DNA from: a virus | Strand: one strand, 5' to 3' | IMG/VR virus record: IMGVR_UViG_3300002460_000009 | Span: 1 to 44,858 of that record | DNA: 44,858 nucleotides | Shown here: piece after piece, positions 6,402-38,805 of the stretch | Numbering within the stretch: the first letter of the stretch is position 1 | Layout of the letters: every line of letters starts with the position of its first letter | Notes under the pieces: model-generated | What the model was told of the DNA's origin: nothing | Database searches by the model: none | Seen by the model: the letters and a program-made list of their open reading frames with translations, nothing else | Made by a program: the position numbers and the translations under genes

Positions 6402-7835
6402 ATGGCCGACCCCTATACCTCAGTCACCGTCACCGATTACAACCTCAATCCGCCGGCGGATGACGGCTCGGCGGTGCCGAGCAATCAGGGCACATGGGCG
6501 GGCGTCAAAACGAAGCTCGCCGATCCGGTCAAGACGGCGCTCGAATCGATCAACACGAATGTCGGCTCGGCGGTCGACAAGCTCGCCGGCGGCATCACCA
6601 GCGTCTCGGACGACTACACGGTCCTCGCCTCGGATCAGGGCAAGCTGATTGTCGAGACGGTCGCGGCGAAGACGATCACCACGCTCGCTGCGGCCACGGC
6701 CGCATCCCCCTTCCGCTTCGGCGTGCTCAACAATTCGAGCGGTGATCTGACGCTGGAAGGCAATGCCTCGGAGACCATCGACGGCGCGGCGAACGTCACC
6801 ATCCCCTCGGGCTGCGGCGTCATCATCGAAACCGACGGCTCGAACTGGAAGACGCACGGCCAGAATTGGGTTGTGCGGCCGATCGCGTTGTTTCCTCCGA
6901 CGGGGCGGCTGACGCTGACGAGCGGCTCGCCGGTGCTCTCTGCCGACGTGACCGCCCAAGCGACGGTCTACTACACGCCGTACAACGGCAATTCGATCAT
7001 GCTCTACGACGGCACCCGATGGGTGTCGCATTCCTTCTCCGAGCTCTCGCAGGCGCTTTCCGACACGACCAAGAGCCCGGCCGCGGCGGCTGCCGATTCG
7101 GTCTATGACATGTTCGTCTGGAACGATTCCGGCACGTTGCGCTGCACGCGCGGCCCGGCCTGGTCGAGCGCCACCGACCGCGGCACCGGCGCGGGCACCA
7201 CTGAACTCGCCCGCACGAATGGCGTCCTGATGAACGCCAACGCGATCTCGAACGGCCCGGCGGCTCAGCGCGGGGTCTACGTCGGCACGATCGCGACCAA
7301 CGGCTCGACGCAGCTCGCGATGATGTTCGCGCCGGCGGCGGCGGCGGGCGGCTCAGCGAACCGGCTCGACGTATGGAACATGTACAACCGGGTCGACGTG
7401 GCGAGCGTCTGCCGGGATTCGACGGACACGTGGACCTATACGACTGCCACGCTGCGCGCTGCGAATGCTGCGGCTGCGAGCGGCGTCGCCAATCGGATTG
7501 CCTTGGTGCGCGGGCTCGATGAAGAGCCGGTGTCGGCTGAATACAATGCGCTTGGAAGCAATAGTGCGGCCGGGACTGGTGTTCGGTTTCTTGTTGGCGT
7601 CGGATTAGATTCCACCTCGGCAATTGCGGCCGGCTCGGTTACTGGCAGCTTGGCGATAGGCGACAGCGCCGGTCCCAATTCGTTAGTCGCGAAGTACAAT
7701 GCTCTGCCGGGAATTGGGCTGCACTTCTTGCAGGAGCTTGAATATTCGGTCGCGGCCAGCACGACGACTTGGTATGGAGACGGCGGCGCTCCGTTGATCA
7801 CGCAGTCCGGCATGACGCTGCGGACGCGGATGTGA
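6402..7835 (+). CDS. Tail fibre-like protein
   Basis: 477 residues, rich in Ser, Thr, Ala, Asn and Gly with little charge, as in trimeric beta-structured fibres. The first 90 residues (MADPYTSVTVTDYNLNPPAD, then a helical segment with VKTALESINTNVGSAVDKLAG) look like a virion-binding domain. The middle contains fibre-style repeats (LYDGTRWVSHSFSE, VYDMFVWNDSGTLRC) and the end (LQELEYSVAASTTTWYGDGG) looks like a receptor-binding tip. It sits after the ejection proteins and before lysis, the usual place for a fibre. The last ~350 bases are less GC-biased at third positions than the rest, which suggests exchange of the tip. Confidence 0.7.
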   Translation: MADPYTSVTVTDYNLNPPADDGSAVPSNQGTWAGVKTKLADPVKTALESINTNVGSAVDKLAGGITSVSDDYTVLASDQGKLIVETVAAKTITTLAAATAASPFRFGVLNNSSGDLTLEGNASETIDGAANVTIPSGCGVIIETDGSNWKTHGQNWVVRPIALFPPTGRLTLTSGSPVLSADVTAQATVYYTPYNGNSIMLYDGTRWVSHSFSELSQALSDTTKSPAAAAADSVYDMFVWNDSGTLRCTRGPAWSSATDRGTGAGTTELARTNGVLMNANAISNGPAAQRGVYVGTIATNGSTQLAMMFAPAAAAGGSANRLDVWNMYNRVDVASVCRDSTDTWTYTTATLRAANAAAASGVANRIALVRGLDEEPVSAEYNALGSNSAAGTGVRFLVGVGLDSTSAIAAGSVTGSLAIGDSAGPNSLVAKYNALPGIGLHFLQELEYSVAASTTTWYGDGGAPLITQSGMTLRTRM

Positions 7836-7876
7836 CGATGCGTAATCTCCGATTGCATGGCGAGCCACCGTGCGCC

Positions 7877-7896
7877 GTATCCTCTATAGTGAACAG
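7877..7896 (-). promoter_or_regulatory. CTATAG-family site 2
   Basis: GTATCCTCTATAGTGAACAG, the reverse orientation of the family. It lies between the fibre stop (7835) and the muramidase ATG (7906). Confidence 0.8.
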
Positions 7897-7905
7897 GATG
7901 CGGTC

Positions 7906-8718
7906 ATGACTGATTTCAACGGCTTCAAGGGACGCGCGAAGAAACTCGATGATGTTGATCTACCGCGCATCGGTGCGCGCATCGGCGTCGGCGAGGACGA
8001 GCTGCACGCCTTCATGGAAGTCGAGGCGGCTGGATCCGGCTTCGACGGCCAGGGCCGGCCGAAGATGCTTTTCGAGCCGCATGTTTTCTATCGGAACCTG
8101 ACCGGATCGAAGCGCGCCGCCGCCGTCCAGAACGGCCTCGCCTATGCGAAGTGGAAGGCCGGCAATTATCCCAAGGACAGCTATCCGCGTCTCGAGAAGG
8201 CGATCGAGATCGATGAAACAGCTGCTTTGAAGGCGGCCAGCTGGGGCCTCGGCCAGGTGCTTGGCGAGAACCACAAGATGCTCGGCTACGAGACGCCGCA
8301 GGCGATGGTCCTCGCCTTCATGGATGACGAGGAGAAGCACGTCGATGGCATGGTTGACTTCCTGATCTCAGCCGGCATCGACGACGATCTCCGCGCGCAT
8401 CACTGGGCGACCATCGCCCGCGTCTACAACGGCCCCGGCTACAAGACGCACAACTACGATGGCCGGATGCACTCGGCCTATCAGAAGTGGGCGAAGATCA
8501 AGGACACCCCTTGGACGCCCGGTCAGGACGCCGGCGAGATCACCCCGGCCGTCCGCCCCGATCCCGGCCTTAACGCGCCGGAACCGCCCGTCCAGGCCCC
8601 ACAGCGCCCTGCTGACGAGGTGCTTGCCGAGCGCGTCCCGGCCGCGCCGGCGAGTCGCCAGAGCAGCCTCGCGGGCCTTCTGATCGCCATCCTCAAACTG
8701 ATCTTCGGGAGACGCTGA
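7906..8718 (+). CDS. Endolysin, N-acetylmuramidase (DUF3380 type)
   Basis: 270 residues. Residues about 20-200 match the DUF3380 N-acetylmuramidase family: IGVGEDELHAFMEVEAAGSG with the likely catalytic Glu at 40, then GQGRPKMLFEPHVFYRNLTG, YPRLEKAIEIDETAALKAAS and YNGPGYKTHNYD. It cleaves the glycan backbone of peptidoglycan at the end of infection. There is no N-terminal signal peptide, but the C-terminus ends in a hydrophobic helix (SSLAGLLIAILKLIFGRR) after a Pro-rich linker, which could tether it to the membrane. I chose ATG 7906 rather than GTG 7870 because the earlier start would place the CTATAG site inside the gene and 7906 has AGGAT upstream. Confidence 0.85.
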   Translation: MTDFNGFKGRAKKLDDVDLPRIGARIGVGEDELHAFMEVEAAGSGFDGQGRPKMLFEPHVFYRNLTGSKRAAAVQNGLAYAKWKAGNYPKDSYPRLEKAIEIDETAALKAASWGLGQVLGENHKMLGYETPQAMVLAFMDDEEKHVDGMVDFLISAGIDDDLRAHHWATIARVYNGPGYKTHNYDGRMHSAYQKWAKIKDTPWTPGQDAGEITPAVRPDPGLNAPEPPVQAPQRPADEVLAERVPAAPASRQSSLAGLLIAILKLIFGRR

Positions 8719-29505: not shown

Positions 29506-29799
29506 ATGGCGAAATTGTATATCGAGGAGGCGACGAGTTTGAGGGATGATGGTGGCGGCGAGACGCTTCCGGTCTTTCCTGAGCCATCCGGTTTTTCCGT
29601 AGTGACGTTCACGACCGCAGCGCAGAGCGCGGCCTTTGGCGGCGAGTTCATCCGGATTCTGGCGGATGCGAACTGCCATATCGCCTTTGGGTCAGATCCG
29701 ACGGCGACGGCCAATCATCCGAGATACGTCGCGGATGTTGAGTATTTCCGGTCTGTGCGATCGGGAGAGAAGCTTTCGGTTTACGACGGGACGAGCTGA
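29506..29799 (+). CDS. Hypothetical late protein, possible virion accessory
   Basis: 97 residues with a strong AGGAGG. beta-rich and low in charge (MAKLYIEEATSLRDDGGGET; FEPSG-like FPEPSGFSVVTFTTAA, GGEFIRILADANCHIAFGSD). Reads like a small head or tail decoration protein. Its stop overlaps the next ATG. Confidence 0.6.
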   Translation: MAKLYIEEATSLRDDGGGETLPVFPEPSGFSVVTFTTAAQSAAFGGEFIRILADANCHIAFGSDPTATANHPRYVADVEYFRSVRSGEKLSVYDGTS

Positions 29800-31992: not shown

Positions 31993-32012
31993 GTATTCAC
32001 TATAGAGGATAC
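31993..32012 (+). promoter_or_regulatory. CTATAG-family site 7, consensus member
   Basis: GTATTCACTATAGAGGATAC, the fullest palindrome (outer GTAT/ATAC as well as the core). It lies upstream of the glycosyltransferase/methyltransferase cassette. Its GAGGA can serve as ribosome site for the ATG at 32013. Confidence 0.85.
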
Positions 32013-32042
32013 ATGCTCTTCGCCCTCCTGCCTCGCGCATGA
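32013..32042 (+). CDS. Possible 9-residue leader peptide
   Basis: MLFALLPRA, starting right after the GAGGA of site 7 and ending with a TGA that overlaps the ATG of the glycosyltransferase (ATGA). It could couple translation to the downstream gene. Confidence 0.35.
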   Translation: MLFALLPRA

Positions 32043-32674
32043 CTGAAAAAATCCTGTTTGCCACTCCGGCCTACGGCAACATGGTCACGGCGGCCTACTG
32101 CCGATCGGCGCTCGTCGCGATGGAGGAACTCACCAAGGCCGGCATCGCGAACGACTGGATCATCCCCGAGAACAACGACAGCCTCGTCCATCGCGCCAGG
32201 ATGAAGATCGCAAAAACCTTCCTCGACCGGAAGGAATTCTCGCACCTCTTCTGGATCGACGCCGACATCGAATACGGGCCGGCCGACATCGCGGCGCTGT
32301 GGAACCTCACCGCCGACATCGCCGTCGGCGTTTACGCCATGAAAAAGCGCGAGGAGCAGTGGTTCGCCGCCTGGAAGGATGGCGCGCTGGTCAAGGATCT
32401 CGATCGGTGGAAGGGACCAACGCCGGTCGACTATGCCGGCACCGGCTTCATGCTCATCAAGCGCGCGGTCCTCGAGACGCTCGCCGAGATCGTTCCCCAC
32501 TTCGACGACGACGTGAAGGACATCCCCGCCCTCTTCATGACGCCGATCCACAACGGCGGGCTCGAGAGCGAGGACTATCATTTCTGCCGGATCGCCCGCG
32601 AGGCCGGCTTCAAGATCATCATGGATCCGAAGGTCCGCCTGAAGCATTGGGGCAGCTATGCTTTTGGTCAGTAA
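32039..32674 (+). CDS. GT-A type glycosyltransferase
   Basis: 211 residues. ILFATPAYGNMVTAAYCRSA near the N-terminus, HLFWIDADIEYGPADI (about 63-78) with a DxD-type metal/sugar-nucleotide motif, YAGTGFMLIKRAVLETL and EDYHFCRIAREAGFKIIMDP are the marks of a GT2/ANP1-like glycosyltransferase. It would transfer a sugar from a nucleotide-sugar donor in the cytoplasm. First gene of a cassette of eight coupled genes. Confidence 0.82.
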   Translation: MTEKILFATPAYGNMVTAAYCRSALVAMEELTKAGIANDWIIPENNDSLVHRARMKIAKTFLDRKEFSHLFWIDADIEYGPADIAALWNLTADIAVGVYAMKKREEQWFAAWKDGALVKDLDRWKGPTPVDYAGTGFMLIKRAVLETLAEIVPHFDDDVKDIPALFMTPIHNGGLESEDYHFCRIAREAGFKIIMDPKVRLKHWGSYAFGQ

Positions 32675-33302
32675 GCCGTCCTGGCTCGACGAATACGGCG
32701 GCCCCGGCTTCGCCATGCCCGAGATCGCCGGCCGCTACGCCGGCAAGAGCCTGGTCATCGTCGGCGACGCCCTCTGCGTCTGGGACGATCTCGCAAAGTT
32801 CGGCTGCGCCGTTCGTCACCGCCGCGGCGAGGTCGGGAAAAGCGGCTGGGATTTTCTGACGATCAACAAGATCGTCGAGACATTTCCGGGCAACATCGAG
32901 CACGCCTATTCCAACGACGGCGCCGCGTTGCCGAAATTCGTCGAGGTCCGCCGGCAGGAATACCGGACGGAGTTCGGTGGTCCGGCGCACACGCACTCCT
33001 GCAACAAGGGGGCGAAGTGGCGCTGGCCGTGGGGCGGCTGGGGCACGTCGGGGCTCGGCGGCTGCTTCGTCGGCAAGATGCTCGGCTACGACCGAGCCGT
33101 GATCGTCGGGATGCCGCTCGACGAAAGCCCGCATAACGGCGAGCCGCCCTGGCGCCACACGAATTTCACGCGCGAGGCGCCATCGACCGAGAAGGGCAAC
33201 ATGAACAAGCACTGGCTGCGCGCCCGCGACGCCTGGGGCGGCAAGCTGAAGTCGATGAGCGGGCGCACGCGCGAGTGGCTCGGCTCGCCGGAGAACTGGT
33301 GA
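32658..33302 (+). CDS. Unknown protein of the glycan cassette
   Basis: 214 residues, ATG 32658, overlapping the glycosyltransferase by 17 bases. KSLVIVGDALCVWDDL (about 30-45) reads as a Rossmann-like strand-loop, and GYDRAVIVGMPLDESPHNGE, PPWRHTNFTRE as a later conserved-looking site; the layout resembles DUF115/sialyltransferase-like GT-B-type proteins. No certain family. Confidence 0.6.
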   Translation: MLLVSKPSWLDEYGGPGFAMPEIAGRYAGKSLVIVGDALCVWDDLAKFGCAVRHRRGEVGKSGWDFLTINKIVETFPGNIEHAYSNDGAALPKFVEVRRQEYRTEFGGPAHTHSCNKGAKWRWPWGGWGTSGLGGCFVGKMLGYDRAVIVGMPLDESPHNGEPPWRHTNFTREAPSTEKGNMNKHWLRARDAWGGKLKSMSGRTREWLGSPENW

Positions 33303-34159
33303 TGCGCTCGATCCGCGGCGGCTCCGGGCTCGGCGACTCGCTCTACGTCCAGTCGATCGCCCGCCATCTCGTCATAAAGGGCGAGGAGCTCGAAATCTGC
33401 TCGAGTTGGGACGACGTGTTCCGGCCGCTCCGCCCGCGCGTCGAGGTCGTCATGTACCGCCGGACCCCCGTCGATATCGTCGCCCACTACATGCAGCGGC
33501 GCGATCTTCCGACCGACCAGTTCGAGGATGTGTGCATTTCGGCGCGGCTCCCCCCCGAAGATGTCGAGATGAAAATCGACTGGCAGATCGTCGGCTGCGA
33601 GCACCTGAAGAAGATCGCGCCGAAGGGCAAGCCGGTGATCGCCGTCCAGCTTCCGCGCAATCCGCTTGGCAAGGAAGGCAATGCGACGCTCGGCGCCGAC
33701 CTGCTACCGAATGTCGAGTTTATGCAGCGGGCGGTCGACCGGCTCAAGGGCCGCGCGTGGCTGATGCAGATCGGCCGCGGGACGCCACGCTGGTATTTCC
33801 GCGGCCTCGATCTCGATCTCGCCAACCGGACATCGATCGCCGAGCTTCTCGACGTGTCATCGCTGGCCGACGGTTTTTTCGGCTACTGCAGCTTCATGGT
33901 GCCACTCGCCGAGAGCTTCCAGAAGCCGGCGCTGTTCGCCTGGTCGCGGCGCGGCCTCGACTCGCGCGACAGCTACACCCGCCGCGTCCGCCCTCAGAAA
34001 ATCCTCCACTCCCCGTCCTCTCGTCACGTCATCGACAACGCGAGCGACGCGGAACTCGAAAGAGCCATCGATGAATTTCTTGACGCGATCCGAAATCCGG
34101 CCGGTGTTCAATGGGAAGCGAGTGGCGATCGTGGGGAGCGGGCCGGGCTCGCTGGATAA
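33302..34159 (+). CDS. GT9-like glycosyltransferase (heptosyltransferase-like)
   Basis: 285 residues. SIRGGSGLGDSLYVQSIARH (3-22) is the typical GT9/GT-B N-terminal loop; GKPVIAVQLPRNPLGKEGNA and MQIGRGTPRWYF are followed by SIAELLDVSSLADGFFGYCS, like the donor-side helix region. ADP-heptose:LPS heptosyltransferases have this arrangement. The stop lies 89 bases inside the next gene. Confidence 0.68.
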   Translation: MRSIRGGSGLGDSLYVQSIARHLVIKGEELEICSSWDDVFRPLRPRVEVVMYRRTPVDIVAHYMQRRDLPTDQFEDVCISARLPPEDVEMKIDWQIVGCEHLKKIAPKGKPVIAVQLPRNPLGKEGNATLGADLLPNVEFMQRAVDRLKGRAWLMQIGRGTPRWYFRGLDLDLANRTSIAELLDVSSLADGFFGYCSFMVPLAESFQKPALFAWSRRGLDSRDSYTRRVRPQKILHSPSSRHVIDNASDAELERAIDEFLDAIRNPAGVQWEASGDRGERAGLAG

Positions 34160-34757
34160 CGGGCCGGGCTTCATCGACGGCCACGAGGTCGTCGTTCGGA
34201 TCAATAACTACAAGCTCGTGCCGGCGGCGACCGGATCACGGACAGACGTGTTTTTTTCATTCTTCGGCAAATCGGTTCGCAAGACGGCGGCCGAACTCAG
34301 CGGCGACGGCGTGACGCTCTGCATGGCGAAGTGCCCGTGCGCGCTCGCGATCGACTCCGACTGGCACCGCGAGCGGAACAAGATGGAGGGCGTCGACTTC
34401 CGCTGGATCTACGACGACCGCGCCGATTGGTGGTTCTGCGACACCTATGTCCCGACGCTCGCCGACTTTCTGAAGGTCTTCGAGACGCTCGGCCGGCACA
34501 TCCCGACGACGGGCTTCGCAGCCATCCATGAAATTCTGCTCGCCGAGCCGGTATCCCTGTACCTCACGGGCTTCGATTTCTTCCGCTCTGGCATCCACAA
34601 TCTCAACGAGCCGTGGCGCGCGAAGAACAGCGATGATCCGATCGGCCACATGCCCGAGCGCGAGCTCGCGTGGCTGGCGGAAAACTGGTCGCGCCACCCG
34701 CTCGCCGGCGACCCGGCGCTGATGCGCGCGCTCAAAACCGCGATGGTGCCAGCATGA
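34071..34757 (+). CDS. GT29/sialyltransferase-like protein
   Basis: 228 residues. GKRVAIVGSGPGSLDNGPGF (15-34) followed by EVVVRINNYKL and GSRTDVFFSFFG (about 55-66) resembles the sialyl-motif L region of GT29-type enzymes, found in some bacterial and phage glycan clusters. GFAAIHEILLAEPVSLYLTG fits the later S-motif-like region. The first 89 bases overlap the upstream gene, though later starts would remove the motif. Confidence 0.72.
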   Translation: MNFLTRSEIRPVFNGKRVAIVGSGPGSLDNGPGFIDGHEVVVRINNYKLVPAATGSRTDVFFSFFGKSVRKTAAELSGDGVTLCMAKCPCALAIDSDWHRERNKMEGVDFRWIYDDRADWWFCDTYVPTLADFLKVFETLGRHIPTTGFAAIHEILLAEPVSLYLTGFDFFRSGIHNLNEPWRAKNSDDPIGHMPERELAWLAENWSRHPLAGDPALMRALKTAMVPA

Positions 34758-35029
34758 TCAACGGAATGTTTTTGGCCATCTTCTTTTACTTGGTCCCAAT
34801 CGTTGCCGTCGATGCGGACACATTTGTTGTCAGTGTCGAAGCCGTCGAAATGATCAATGATCAGTCCATCATTGGCGTTCGCACATTCTCGGAAATGCCT
34901 CAGAAGGACAAAAATAGTGTAATCGGCGGGGCGATCATTGTCGGCTTTTTGGGCCTCTTCGCCGCATATCTGCTCATACTGCGCGTAGTGTGGGATTGCT
35001 TCTATCGTAGGCGGGATCATCTTCGATGA
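34754..35029 (+). CDS. Membrane protein inside the glycan cassette
   Basis: 91 residues. Hydrophobic N-terminus (MINGMFLAIFFYLVPIVAVD), a short extracytoplasmic loop, and a second TM helix (GGAIIVGFLGLFAAYLLILR) with a basic end (CFYRRRDHLR). Lower GC than its neighbours. ATGA overlaps both sides. It could be a surface-receptor modifier or membrane anchor for the cassette. Confidence 0.6.
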   Translation: MINGMFLAIFFYLVPIVAVDADTFVVSVEAVEMINDQSIIGVRTFSEMPQKDKNSVIGGAIIVGFLGLFAAYLLILRVVWDCFYRRRDHLR

Positions 35030-35568
35030 TCTACACCTACCGCGGCCGCCTATATCCCTCCTATCTGAAAACCGGCAACGCCATGCAGTTCATCGCGCCG
35101 GCGGCGCTGCACTTCTGCCAGGGCGCGGGCCTTGACGTGGGCGCCGGCCGCTGGCCGCTGCCGGGGGCGATCCCGGTCGATCTGATCAACGGCGGCGACG
35201 CGATGAACCTGCCCGAGGGCGAATTCGATTTCATATTTTCCAGTCACGCGATCGAGCACCTCGCCAACCCGGTCGCGGCGATCGAGCACTGGAAGACGCG
35301 GCTGCGGCCCGGCGGTGTGCTTTTCGCCTATCTCCCGCACCCCGACATGACTTATTGGCTGCCGCAGTGGAATAGAAAACACTTGCACGCATGGCGACCG
35401 GCCGACGTCGCTCAGCTTTTTACCGATCTAGGCTTCGTCGACGTCATCCACTCCGAGCGCGATCTCGCGTGGTCCTTCGCCTGTGTCGGATTCAGCGCTG
35501 CGGCCGCGTGCTCTTTCACGAATATTGGGAGGCGCAGCCAGCCGTCGTGCGAGCCGTCGGCGCTCTGA
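35026..35568 (+). CDS. Class I SAM methyltransferase 1
   Basis: 180 residues. GLDVGAGRWPLPGAIPVDLI (about 35-54) is motif I and FDFIFSSHAIEHLANPVAAI, then GVLFAYLPHPD, are Methyltransf_11 features. After DLAWSFACVGF the tail looks like shadow sequence while another frame reads VLFHEYWEAQ, so the 3' end may carry a frameshift. Substrate unknown; small-molecule or sugar methylation is likely from context. Confidence 0.75.
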   Translation: MIYTYRGRLYPSYLKTGNAMQFIAPAALHFCQGAGLDVGAGRWPLPGAIPVDLINGGDAMNLPEGEFDFIFSSHAIEHLANPVAAIEHWKTRLRPGGVLFAYLPHPDMTYWLPQWNRKHLHAWRPADVAQLFTDLGFVDVIHSERDLAWSFACVGFSAAAACSFTNIGRRSQPSCEPSAL

Positions 35569-35600
35569 CCGGCATCGTGGCGGAAAGGGAAGTACGCCCT

Positions 35601-36161
35601 GTGGCGACGAAAATAGTCGATCTCCGCGAAGTGATCATGGAAAAATGCGGCGACCAATTTCTCCGCAAGAGCGTGATCAGCATCCCCGGCCACGCCGAGG
35701 TGCTGGATTGGGTTCTGTCGTCGGGGCCGCCCTACGCCCGCGCGCTTGAGATCGGCACCTACCGCGGCATCGGCGCCGCCTGCCTCGCTCAATACTGCGA
35801 GCACGTCGACACGATCGACCTGATCGCCGGCGCCTTCGAGGCGCGCGAGCTGACGCCGAGCCGGGAATATTTTTGGTGGGCGATGAACGTCCTCGACCGG
35901 ATCGAGCTTCACCGCGTCGCCGGCAACAAGGAAAAGCGGGCGGTCATCGGCGCGCTCGACTTCGATCTCGCCTTCATCGACGGCGGCAAGTGGGACGTGG
36001 CGCCCGACTTCGCCTGGGCGCACCACTGCGGCGCGGTCCTCTTCCACGATTTGACCGACGGTACCGCGGCCGTCGATCGCAACCACGTCTTCCATCTCGT
36101 GAAGACGCTGCCGCAGGATGAAGTCTTCTACCTCGATGGATTCGCCTTATGGACCCCCTGA
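35601..36161 (+). CDS. Class I SAM methyltransferase 2
   Basis: 186 residues from GTG 35601, which has AAGGGAAG upstream. ARALEIGTYRGIGAACLAQY (motif I), VDTIDLIAGAFEA, LDFDLAFIDGGKWDVAPDFA and GAVLFHDLTDG are typical of Methyltransf_24-type enzymes of polysaccharide clusters. The end overlaps the next gene by 13 bases. Confidence 0.78.
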   Translation: MATKIVDLREVIMEKCGDQFLRKSVISIPGHAEVLDWVLSSGPPYARALEIGTYRGIGAACLAQYCEHVDTIDLIAGAFEARELTPSREYFWWAMNVLDRIELHRVAGNKEKRAVIGALDFDLAFIDGGKWDVAPDFAWAHHCGAVLFHDLTDGTAAVDRNHVFHLVKTLPQDEVFYLDGFALWTP

Positions 36162-37297
36162 TCCAGCGCTTCGGCGCGCGCCCCGACGGCGACCTGATGA
36201 TCTGCGACGACCGCGGCATCGCCTATCAGGCCGACATGAGCCGGATCGTCGACTACGGCCGCGATTATTTCAACAAACTGCTCTCCTACGAAGACAAGGA
36301 GATCGCCAGGAAGATCAACGCCGGCCGGATCGCGCTGGTGAAAAAGCATTTCGGCGACGGCATGGTGCTCGACGTGGGGGTCGGCTCTGGCGAGTTCATC
36401 AAGAAGCGCCCGAACACCAAGGGCTACGACATCAACCCGGCGGCGATCGACTGGCTCCGCAACAACGGGGCGCTCACCGGGCATTTCGACAAATTTGAGG
36501 CATACACCTTCTGGGATGTGATCGAGCATGTCCCCGATCCAAACAGCTATTTCCGCAGAATAGAGCCGAATACGTGGCTGTTCACCTGCCTGCCGATCTT
36601 CGCCGATCTCGACAAGATCAGGTCATCCAAGCATTACCGCCCGAACGAGCATCTCTATTATTGGACCGAACAGGGTTTCGTCGACTGGATGGCGCTCTAC
36701 CGCTGGCGGCATGTGGAAACCCAGCGCTTCGAGACCGCGGCCGGCCGCGAGAGCATCGTCAGCTTCGCCTTCAAGCGCGACCTGCCGACCTATCACGACA
36801 TGCTGGCGCAGTATCAAAAGCTGCACGAGAATTTCTACGGGGATTCGGCGTGGCTGCACCGCGCCGCCATCCTGAAGATCGTCCAGGCGGTCCAGCCGAA
36901 AAGCATCCTCGATTACGGATGCGGCCGGAGCGATCTCGTCGCCCACTTCTGGCGCGACGGCGAGCGCGAGATCGCCCGCTACGATCCCGCCATCCCGCGA
37001 TTTGCCACGATGCCCGAGAAGCGCTTCGATCTCGTCTTGTGCCTCGACGTGATGGAGCACATCCCCATAGAGCACGTCGACAAGATTTTCGGCGAGATTA
37101 AGGCCCACAGCCGCAACGTGGTTTTCACCATCTCGACCAAGCCGGCGCGGGCCAAACTGCCCGACGGCCGCAACGCGCACGTCACGCTGTTGAGCCATAA
37201 GGAATGGCTTCGCTGGATCGAGAGCACCTTCACCCACGCCTACCGAATTCCGACCGAGTGGGACCACGAACTGATGGTCCGAACGTTCCGCGTGTAA
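36149..37297 (+). CDS. Tandem methyltransferase (two SAM domains fused)
   Basis: 382 residues with two complete class I methyltransferase cores. Domain 1: MVLDVGVGSGEFIKKR (72-87), then GYDINPAAIDWL and TFWDVIEHVPDP. Domain 2: SILDYGCGRSDLVAHFW (about 251-267) and FDLVLCLDVMEHIPIEHVDK. A region with YRPNEHLYYWTEQGF joins them. Two methyltransferase domains in one chain suggest sequential methylation of one glycan or two substrates. It is the last cassette gene; terL begins 38 bases later. Confidence 0.82.
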   Translation: MDPLIQRFGARPDGDLMICDDRGIAYQADMSRIVDYGRDYFNKLLSYEDKEIARKINAGRIALVKKHFGDGMVLDVGVGSGEFIKKRPNTKGYDINPAAIDWLRNNGALTGHFDKFEAYTFWDVIEHVPDPNSYFRRIEPNTWLFTCLPIFADLDKIRSSKHYRPNEHLYYWTEQGFVDWMALYRWRHVETQRFETAAGRESIVSFAFKRDLPTYHDMLAQYQKLHENFYGDSAWLHRAAILKIVQAVQPKSILDYGCGRSDLVAHFWRDGEREIARYDPAIPRFATMPEKRFDLVLCLDVMEHIPIEHVDKIFGEIKAHSRNVVFTISTKPARAKLPDGRNAHVTLLSHKEWLRWIESTFTHAYRIPTEWDHELMVRTFRV

Positions 37298-37314: not shown

Positions 37315-37334
37315 CTATTCGCTATAGAGGACAG
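37315..37334 (+). promoter_or_regulatory. CTATAG-family site 8, at the terL start
   Basis: CTATTCGCTATAGAGGACAG, one base before GTG 37336. TTTACC (37300-37305) and TATAGA (37323-37328) are 17 bases apart, a possible promoter. AGAGGA inside the site also serves as the terL ribosome binding sequence. Confidence 0.8.
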
Positions 37335-37335
37335 C

Positions 37336-38805
37336 GTGACCGCAGCAATTGCTCCGAACCCGGACGACGCCGAGCGCCTCACCGAGCTCGTCGGCCAGTT
37401 CCACCGCCTGATGGCGGAGAACCGGATCGGGTATTTCAAGCCCTACCCGTGGCAGACCGATTTTCACGCTGCCGGTGCCGAGTATCCAGAAAGGATGCTC
37501 ATGGCAGCCAATCGCACCGGAAAGACTATGTCCGCCGCGGTCGAATGCACCTACCACCTGACCGGCAACTATCCCGACGACTGGCAGGGCAAGCGGTTCC
37601 CCTTCCCGATCATCATGTGGACCGGCTCGCCGACGACCGAGACCTCGCGCGACATCGTGCAGCATGAGCTTCTCGGCGGGCTCGGCCAGGAGCTTGGCAC
37701 GGGCTGGATCCCCAAGAGCAAGATCATCGGCAACCCGACCATCCGGCAGGCGGGCGTCCGCAACGTGATCGACGCCTTCAAGGTCCGCCACGCCACCGGC
37801 GGCGTGTCGGTGTGCTTCCTCAAAGCCTACGAGCAGGGCTGGCAGAAGTTTCAGGGCGGTGCCCCGCATGTCGTGTGGCTCGACGAGGAGCCGAACGACT
37901 ACATGGTCTATTCGGAGGCTCAGACCCGCATCATCTCGTCGCGCGGGATTATCCTCGTCACCTTCACCCCGCTCCTCGGCGTGACCGAGCTCGTCGAGCA
38001 TTTCCAGGCCGGCGCGGCGCGGGCGACCAGCGGCATCTACCTCAAGGGCGCGACCTGGGACGACGCCCCGCACCTTGCCGAGGCCGATCGCAAGCGGATG
38101 CGCGAGTCCTATCGCGCCCACGAGGTCGACGCGCGCACGCAAGGCATTCCGATGCTCGGCGAGGGCGCCGTGTTCCCGGTGTCCGACGCCGAAATCCGCG
38201 TCGACCCGTTCAAGATCCCCGATCACTTCGCCCGGATCAAAGGCTGCGACTTCGGCATCGATCATCCGGCCGCCGGTGTCGATCTCGCCTGGGATCGGGA
38301 TCAGGATGTTGTTTACATTGTTGACACATATCGGAAGGCTCAGGAACTCGCCCCCTACCACGCGGCGTGGTTCAACAAGGCGAACAAGGCGATCCCGGTC
38401 GCCTGGCCGCACGACGGCATGAACCGCGAGAAAGCGGGCGGGCGGACGCTCGCCGAAGCCTACCGGCTGCACGGCGTCAACATGCTGTCGAAGTCGGCGC
38501 GCTATCCGCGGGCGAAGGGCGAGAAGACCGACAAGGGCGGGCCGCAGCCGGTCGAGCCGATCGTCGATGAGGTGCTCGAGCGCATGGTGACAGGCCGCTT
38601 CAAGGTATTCGCCAATCTGTCGATCTTTTTTGAGGAAAAGCGGTCCTATCACCGCAAGGACGGGAAGATCGTCGATCGCCGCGACGACGTGCTGAAGGCG
38701 ACTTTCTACGCCCTGATGATGAAGCGATACGCGGTCGCGCCGGAGTCCTTTGCCTACCGCCACTCGACGGCGCCGGCGCACCCGATCGCGAGCGCGAGGC
38801 TCTGA
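37336..38805 (+). CDS. terL: Terminase large subunit
   Basis: 489 residues from GTG. Walker A MAANRTGKT (56-64), Walker B HVVWLDEE (178-185), and the nuclease domain starts at CDFGIDHP (Asp305), continues with VVYIVDTYRKA and ends with an acidic RRDDVLKATFYALM. It powers DNA packaging through the portal and cuts concatemers. Adjacent to the portal module but 8.5 kb from terS. Confidence 0.93.
   Translation: MTAAIAPNPDDAERLTELVGQFHRLMAENRIGYFKPYPWQTDFHAAGAEYPERMLMAANRTGKTMSAAVECTYHLTGNYPDDWQGKRFPFPIIMWTGSPTTETSRDIVQHELLGGLGQELGTGWIPKSKIIGNPTIRQAGVRNVIDAFKVRHATGGVSVCFLKAYEQGWQKFQGGAPHVVWLDEEPNDYMVYSEAQTRIISSRGIILVTFTPLLGVTELVEHFQAGAARATSGIYLKGATWDDAPHLAEADRKRMRESYRAHEVDARTQGIPMLGEGAVFPVSDAEIRVDPFKIPDHFARIKGCDFGIDHPAAGVDLAWDRDQDVVYIVDTYRKAQELAPYHAAWFNKANKAIPVAWPHDGMNREKAGGRTLAEAYRLHGVNMLSKSARYPRAKGEKTDKGGPQPVEPIVDEVLERMVTGRFKVFANLSIFFEEKRSYHRKDGKIVDRRDDVLKATFYALMMKRYAVAPESFAYRHSTAPAHPIASARL

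Follow-up and report, generated by a model that had tools for sequence, protein, structure and literature searches.

Does the dense run of predicted sugar-transfer and methyltransferase genes in front of terL form one functional unit, and on which acceptor would its products act? The locus belongs to IMG/VR virus record IMGVR_UViG_3300002460_000009, analysed over its positions 1 to 44,858 (44,858 nt, hereafter the window). The initial annotation had described an eight-gene glycosyltransferase/methyltransferase cassette between terS and terL that might decorate the virion or alter host LPS or capsule.

Layout of the block

The cassette ORFs (g1 to g8) span positions 32039-37297 on the plus strand. 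Their ends nearly touch or overlap, mostly by a few to some tens of bases, i.e., the tight spacing is borne out. The location between terS and terL also holds, except that the ORFs at 29506, 29984, 31358 and 31639 separate terS from g1. On the right, terL (37336-38805, plus strand) bounds what turns out to be a variable site. The block is not a single eight-gene unit but a composite: g1 and g2 are core genes, g3-g4-g6-g7-g8 form a separable, exchangeable cargo unit and g5 is an orphan, probably an unrelated insertion.

The block had further been placed behind one CTATAG site. This site exists (core at 32000) within the intergenic motif TTCACTATAGAGGA (31996-32009, plus strand) 5' of g1, a possible promoter or operator, but a second copy, TTCGCTATAGAGGA (37318-37331, plus strand; CTATAG at 37322), lies between g8, the last cargo gene, and terL. 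Overall, the window contains 10 CTATAG cores versus 0.87 expected. The extended, near-palindromic intergenic motif TTCACTATAGAGGATAC occurs in 8 copies (6344, 7880, 10216, 28042, 31996, 37318, 38824 and 43470) and is missing from most sister phages. We see no support for a T7-type promoter: 3/8 copies are reverse-oriented within plus-strand gene runs, and a search for a T7-type polymerase gave no match, as did its control. The motif could be a promoter, an operator or a stoperator.

Enzyme families

Since single glycosyltransferase (GT) proteins of the window score weakly in family searches, we built alignments from related viral loci. With these, the three proposed GT-type genes (GT-A, GT9-like, GT29-like) keep their assignments, which the relatives' profiles sharpen. 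The product of g1 (32039-32674, plus strand; PHROG_1574) shows weak Pfam matches to PF01501 and PF13641, while its profile matches the viral GT STIV A197 (E 0.0024). Its DxD motif (D74/D76) is invariant in the alignment of relatives. Given GT-A relatives and this motif, g1 is classified as a GT-A-like glycosyltransferase.

The next gene, g2 (32658-33302, plus strand), had been called unknown and Rossmann-like. Its AlphaFold model (pLDDT 78, pTM 0.82) has as best PDB matches in Foldseek the GT42 sialyltransferases CstII and Cst-I (E 4e-4 to 4e-3), followed by SteA, ST8SiaIII and Maf. For CstII we find an E of 4e-4 and a probability of 1.0, yet a TM score of only about 0.45 (0.45-0.5 over the best matches). 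The model thus assigns a sialyltransferase (GT42/GT29) fold to g2. Profile comparison via hhalign also connects g2 to relatives of PHROG_4603 (E 5.6e-6). The same alignment connects to g4 (E 9.6e-7), while a direct g4-g2 profile comparison with small alignments gave no link.

With regard to the cargo, g3 (33302-34159, plus strand; an alternative GTG ORF is open from 33275) is its first gene. PF01075 (GT9) is matched by 5/35 g3 relatives (best E 3.7e-4) and not by the window protein itself, and a g3 profile search of the PDB found nothing. We accordingly speak of a putative GT9-like (GT-B) glycosyltransferase. For g4 (34071-34757, plus strand), 33/44 relatives match PF00777 (GT29; best E 9.6e-9), a match that the window protein lacks at the relatives' threshold. 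Within the g4 family, our own sialylmotif patterns are present in 62/80 (L-like) and 78/80 (S-like) sequences, and the L region aligns with ST3Gal-1 at E 0.4. The initially proposed structural check is here only suggestive, in contrast to g2: the g4 model is poor (pLDDT 58) and its best Foldseek match is a mammalian sialyltransferase at E 0.11. The family profiles nevertheless predict g4 to be a GT29-like glycosyltransferase.

The three methyltransferase genes with four domains are confirmed. All are of class I, namely g6 (35026-35568, plus strand; Methyltransf_11/23), g7 (35577-36161, plus strand; Methyltransf_24-like) and the two-domain g8 (36149-37297, plus strand; N domain PHROG_6564, C domain PHROG_24759), of which many relatives have the N domain alone. 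Pfam scores of g6 (38 bits) and g8 (76.1 bits) exceed the cut-off of 27, while g7 stays with 24.2 bits just below the PF13578 cut-off of 26.3.

Phage GT clusters that glycosylate DNA have been described (Pyle 2024, as cited in PMC12619734), such that the genes could serve to hypermodify the phage's DNA with sugars. We consider this very unlikely. A Pfam search places g6, g7 and g8 in no DNA methyltransferase family, and the window holds no thymidylate-synthase-type hydroxymethylase (search control positive). Tet/JBP matches were likewise absent from the window and 22 relatives, a weak argument as the control of the relatives' run also had no match.

The remaining ORF, g5 (34754-35029, plus strand), is the proposed TM gene. 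It is small and hydrophobic (maximal Kyte-Doolittle value 2.5), so a TM-type ORF does exist, but it hardly belongs to the system. Because its GC content is low (0.49 compared to 0.61-0.67 for the other cassette genes) and no relative was found in any related locus fetched, we read g5 as a later insertion into the cassette, probably a recent one.

Core and cargo across viral loci

We compared the block with a clade of phages whose terL is 62-72% identical to that of the window. Nearly all clade records long enough to show both genes have g1 and g2 upstream of terL; one exception (L031) has g1 but not g2. Two g1 copies (4-537 and 7792-8400) are present in one phage, L103. The gap between g2 and terL varies from 0.7 to 5.4 kb. 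In sister phages it holds genes for hexapeptide transferases, radical SAM proteins, GT2 enzymes, methyltransferases and a PIG-L-like deacetylase (a weak match, E 0.0016), while the window cargo is shared within the clade by L022/L129 only. A more distant phage (L191; terL 46%) shows the order g1-g3-g4-g6-g8-g2-terL. Because sister phages hold other sugar-modification genes at the same site, we regard it, judging by gene content, as a hot spot for such genes.

The cargo itself is far more widespread. With g4 as the query we obtained 80 viral loci, which were reduced to 61 non-redundant ones (window counted) by removing near-copies at 90% g4 identity. Nearly all show g3, then g4, then g6/g7 in either order or number, and finally g8, with open frames and conserved motifs. 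Such a recurrence of genes and order, over 61 non-redundant loci, places the cassette as a unit far above chance. That is, an accidental or decaying run of genes taken from hosts, without joint function, in line with which g5 resembles an insertion, is contradicted by the conserved order g3-g4-methyltransferases-g8 and is hardly credible.

To assess the neighbourhood, we used the 29 loci whose flanks reach 2.5 kb or more on each side of the unit. Packaging, head or tail genes are found within 6 kb on the same strand in 27/29 of them, and on both sides in 20/29. The usual order is terL, MCP/protease, portal, collagen-like protein, head-tail adaptor, PHROG_4603, the unit (g3, g4, methyltransferases, g8), head closure/neck and then tape measure. 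Cluster names are PHROGs matches of representatives, while the labels major tail and tail completion are our own reading; ORFs of related loci were called by a simple script, and the IMG/VR contigs are often fragments. A PHROG_4603 protein is located upstream of the unit in 33/51 loci; in L188, its usual place directly before g3 is taken by a g2-type protein. The unit is carried by phages with unrelated packaging genes, i.e., by the window clade (window, L022/L129 and the more distant L191) as well as HK97-type siphophages, and in reduced form by D3/PMG1/PAJU2 and the jumbo phage Eowyn. In the g4 tree the three terL-linked cassettes are scattered, yet their grouping in one clade is statistically acceptable (p-AU 0.53), and we therefore do not claim independent acquisition by the window clade.

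We find little to suggest a bacterial or plasmid origin. A non-exhaustive short-peptide pattern scan of GTDB species genomes, which can miss relatives, found no g2 and one g4 relative, and no g4 was found in plasmids. The single hit (L195) is a contig of a betaproteobacterial groundwater MAG that carries the cassette together with a collagen-like protein and is probably a prophage.

Two protein families were considered as a common glycan acceptor. In many siphophages (L124, L125, L137, L152 and L160, among others), collagen-like Gly-X-Y proteins with a long repeat (cluster c10) are encoded just 5' of the head-tail adaptor and the cassette; they are possible acceptors. Since they are present in only 27/70 loci with a called g4 ORF and absent from the window, no common acceptor was found. 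The second family comprises small proteins of about 100 aa near sugar cassettes (window 29506-29799, L125:12842-13159, L019:1951-2205), but it is present in only seven loci of different phage types.

Among 50,697 sequenced phage records, tblastn found no relatives of g2, g3 or g4, and a divergent g4 used as query likewise gave none. Sequenced phages do contain relatives of the methyltransferase and PHROG_4603 genes. PAJU2 carries, in this order, a head closure gene, PHROG_4603, gp11, the methyltransferase gene gp12, gp13 and a tail terminator gene, and D3 and PMG1 have PAJU2's genes with connector genes in between. The triad gp10-gp11-gp12 is annotated as PHROG_4603 'alpha-2,3-sialyltransferase', hypothetical protein and methyltransferase; PAJU2 gp11 and D3 orf12 are distant relatives of g3 (E 1e-5 to 1e-6 by hmmsearch of a small set, 4e-7 by hhalign). 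Like the window, D3, PMG1 and PAJU2 thus combine a sialyltransferase-fold protein, a GT9-like protein and a g8-type methyltransferase within a head-to-tail gene run, while they are without a g4-like GT29, g6 and g7, and their methyltransferase is single-domain, with only 33-36% identity to g8. By these similarities, the three phages hold a minimal version of three genes at the corresponding site.

In the Klebsiella jumbo phage Eowyn (gp003-gp005), a methyltransferase, a GT9-like protein and PHROG_4603 form a free unit, which differs from the window in lying on the opposite strand to its neighbours and in the absence of g4. Its GT9-like protein was found by hmmsearch with E 3e-4 (5e-15 after adding D3-type sequences to the profile) and by hhalign with E 2.7e-4. 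In Caulobacter jumbo phages, PHROG_4603 and methyltransferase genes adjoin tail genes.

The P1 cluster pmgO-pmgP-ppp-pmgQ is partly related: pmgO is of PHROG_4603 type, pmgP matches weakly, and pmgQ is a GT homologous to GTs of sister-phage cargo (E down to 1e-34). In contrast to the window, it has no GT9-like, GT29 or methyltransferase gene. Both pmgO and pmgP look sialyltransferase-like (P1 79.6-82.2 kb; L199:5593-8151), and the 'morphogenetic' genes pmgO, pmgP and pmgQ may be glycan genes. Annotation of the pmgO region shows C1 operators as well as a late promoter, and pmgO is dispensable for laboratory lytic growth (PMC10695390).

Proposed virion glycosylation and its alternatives

What would such a cassette do? 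We observe its enzyme families, a conserved gene order, sharing between unrelated phages and a neighbourhood of virion genes. Our preferred reading, which we hold to be about evenly poised between right and wrong, is a late, phage-encoded virion glycosylation unit whose soluble enzymes would equip a virion protein with a short, O-methylated glycan. Made alongside the head proteins, the enzymes would act in the cytoplasm, taking host nucleotide sugars and transferring them to this protein. Here, g1 and g2 may begin the glycan, g3 and g4 would lengthen it, and g6, g7 and g8 would subsequently O-methylate it. Since the unit is exchangeable, i.e., sister phages retain g1-g2 and carry other sugar-tailoring genes, the coat glycan would differ between phages. 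The methylated glycan from host nucleotide sugars suggested initially is thus still the best reading; its enzyme assignments hold, while we infer late expression, the virion acceptor, catalysis, sugar identity, methylation of the sugar and order of steps.

The main rival, rather improbable in our view, is a host surface glycan (LPS, capsule) modified late or in lysogens, which would block superinfection or keep progeny from re-adsorbing to debris. LPS and capsule loci commonly include GT9 and O-methyltransferase families, sister cassettes contain hexapeptide transferases and deacetylase-like genes, and a weak integrase match in the window hints at a temperate phage. D3, moreover, is a known seroconverting phage, although through other genes (PMC12373910). 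Against this, a Kyte-Doolittle screen of g1-g4 and g6-g8 revealed no strongly hydrophobic segment, such that all cassette enzymes look soluble (the orphan g5 excepted). A search aimed at the GtrA flippase, as expected for Gtr-type seroconversion, found none in the window or 22 related records. Furthermore, most loci have the genes within the head-neck run, not beside an integrase or repressor. The initial annotation had left virion and host LPS side by side; that many phages have the unit among their virion genes speaks for the virion rather than a lysogenic LPS change. The late-gene position as such is equally compatible with a virion acceptor and a late host-surface change, i.e., the 27/29 loci with enzyme genes in the late/virion region support the function without defining it.

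Alternatively, the enzymes might glycosylate a host protein (such as pilin, flagellin or S-layer) in the cytoplasm, much as Maf glycosyltransferases do with flagellin. Maf (E 0.042) and related folds are among the matches of the g2 model, and soluble cytoplasmic enzymes would fit. This leaves unexplained why the unit persists beside virion genes across lineages with different hosts, and we know of no host acceptor common to Pseudomonas, Klebsiella and the uncultured hosts. We thus judge it unlikely. The dispensability of P1 pmgO and the lack of a common acceptor, in turn, count against virion glycosylation.

We found no published description of the cassette in a literature search mostly outside subscription papers. 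Still, the earlier statement that no close equivalent has been described does not stand given the D3-type reduced version and two functional equivalents. Mycobacteriophage GTs glycosylate capsid and tail proteins (Freeman 2023, as cited in PMC11256854 and PMC12619734), i.e., phage-encoded GTs act on virion proteins as proposed here. Their genes are described near the 3' genome end (PMC11256854), and the likeness drawn here is one of described function. In the chlorovirus PBCV-1, virus-encoded GTs and an O-methyltransferase build a methylated capsid glycan, with A064R acting as GT-GT-methyltransferase (PMC7826918). PBCV-1 is an algal virus in which a single fusion protein combines the GT and methyltransferase domains, and is likened here to the window by function.

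Which sugars might be used can be guessed from the families. GT9 enzymes classically use ADP-heptose, while the GT29/GT42 group uses CMP-sugars, with CMP-Kdo available in LPS-making hosts. On this family knowledge, a widespread swappable cassette could coat virions with O-methylated host LPS inner-core sugars, i.e., a methylated heptose-Kdo glycan, which we consider doubtful. If true, cassette swapping would constitute a phage 'serotype' system.

Given a cassette in dozens of unrelated uncultured phages and its reduced form in D3, a coat of methylated sugars may be common on phage particles. Virion glycans affect how antibodies recognise phages, which has been reported for mycobacteriophages, and may also influence stability and adsorption. 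As D3, PMG1 and PAJU2 carry the minimal version, the question can be tested with laboratory phages. If virion glycosylation holds true, the few proven cases would greatly understate how common glycosylated virions are among phages of Gram-negative bacteria, and phages would possess a swappable glycan locus comparable to the O-antigen loci of bacteria.
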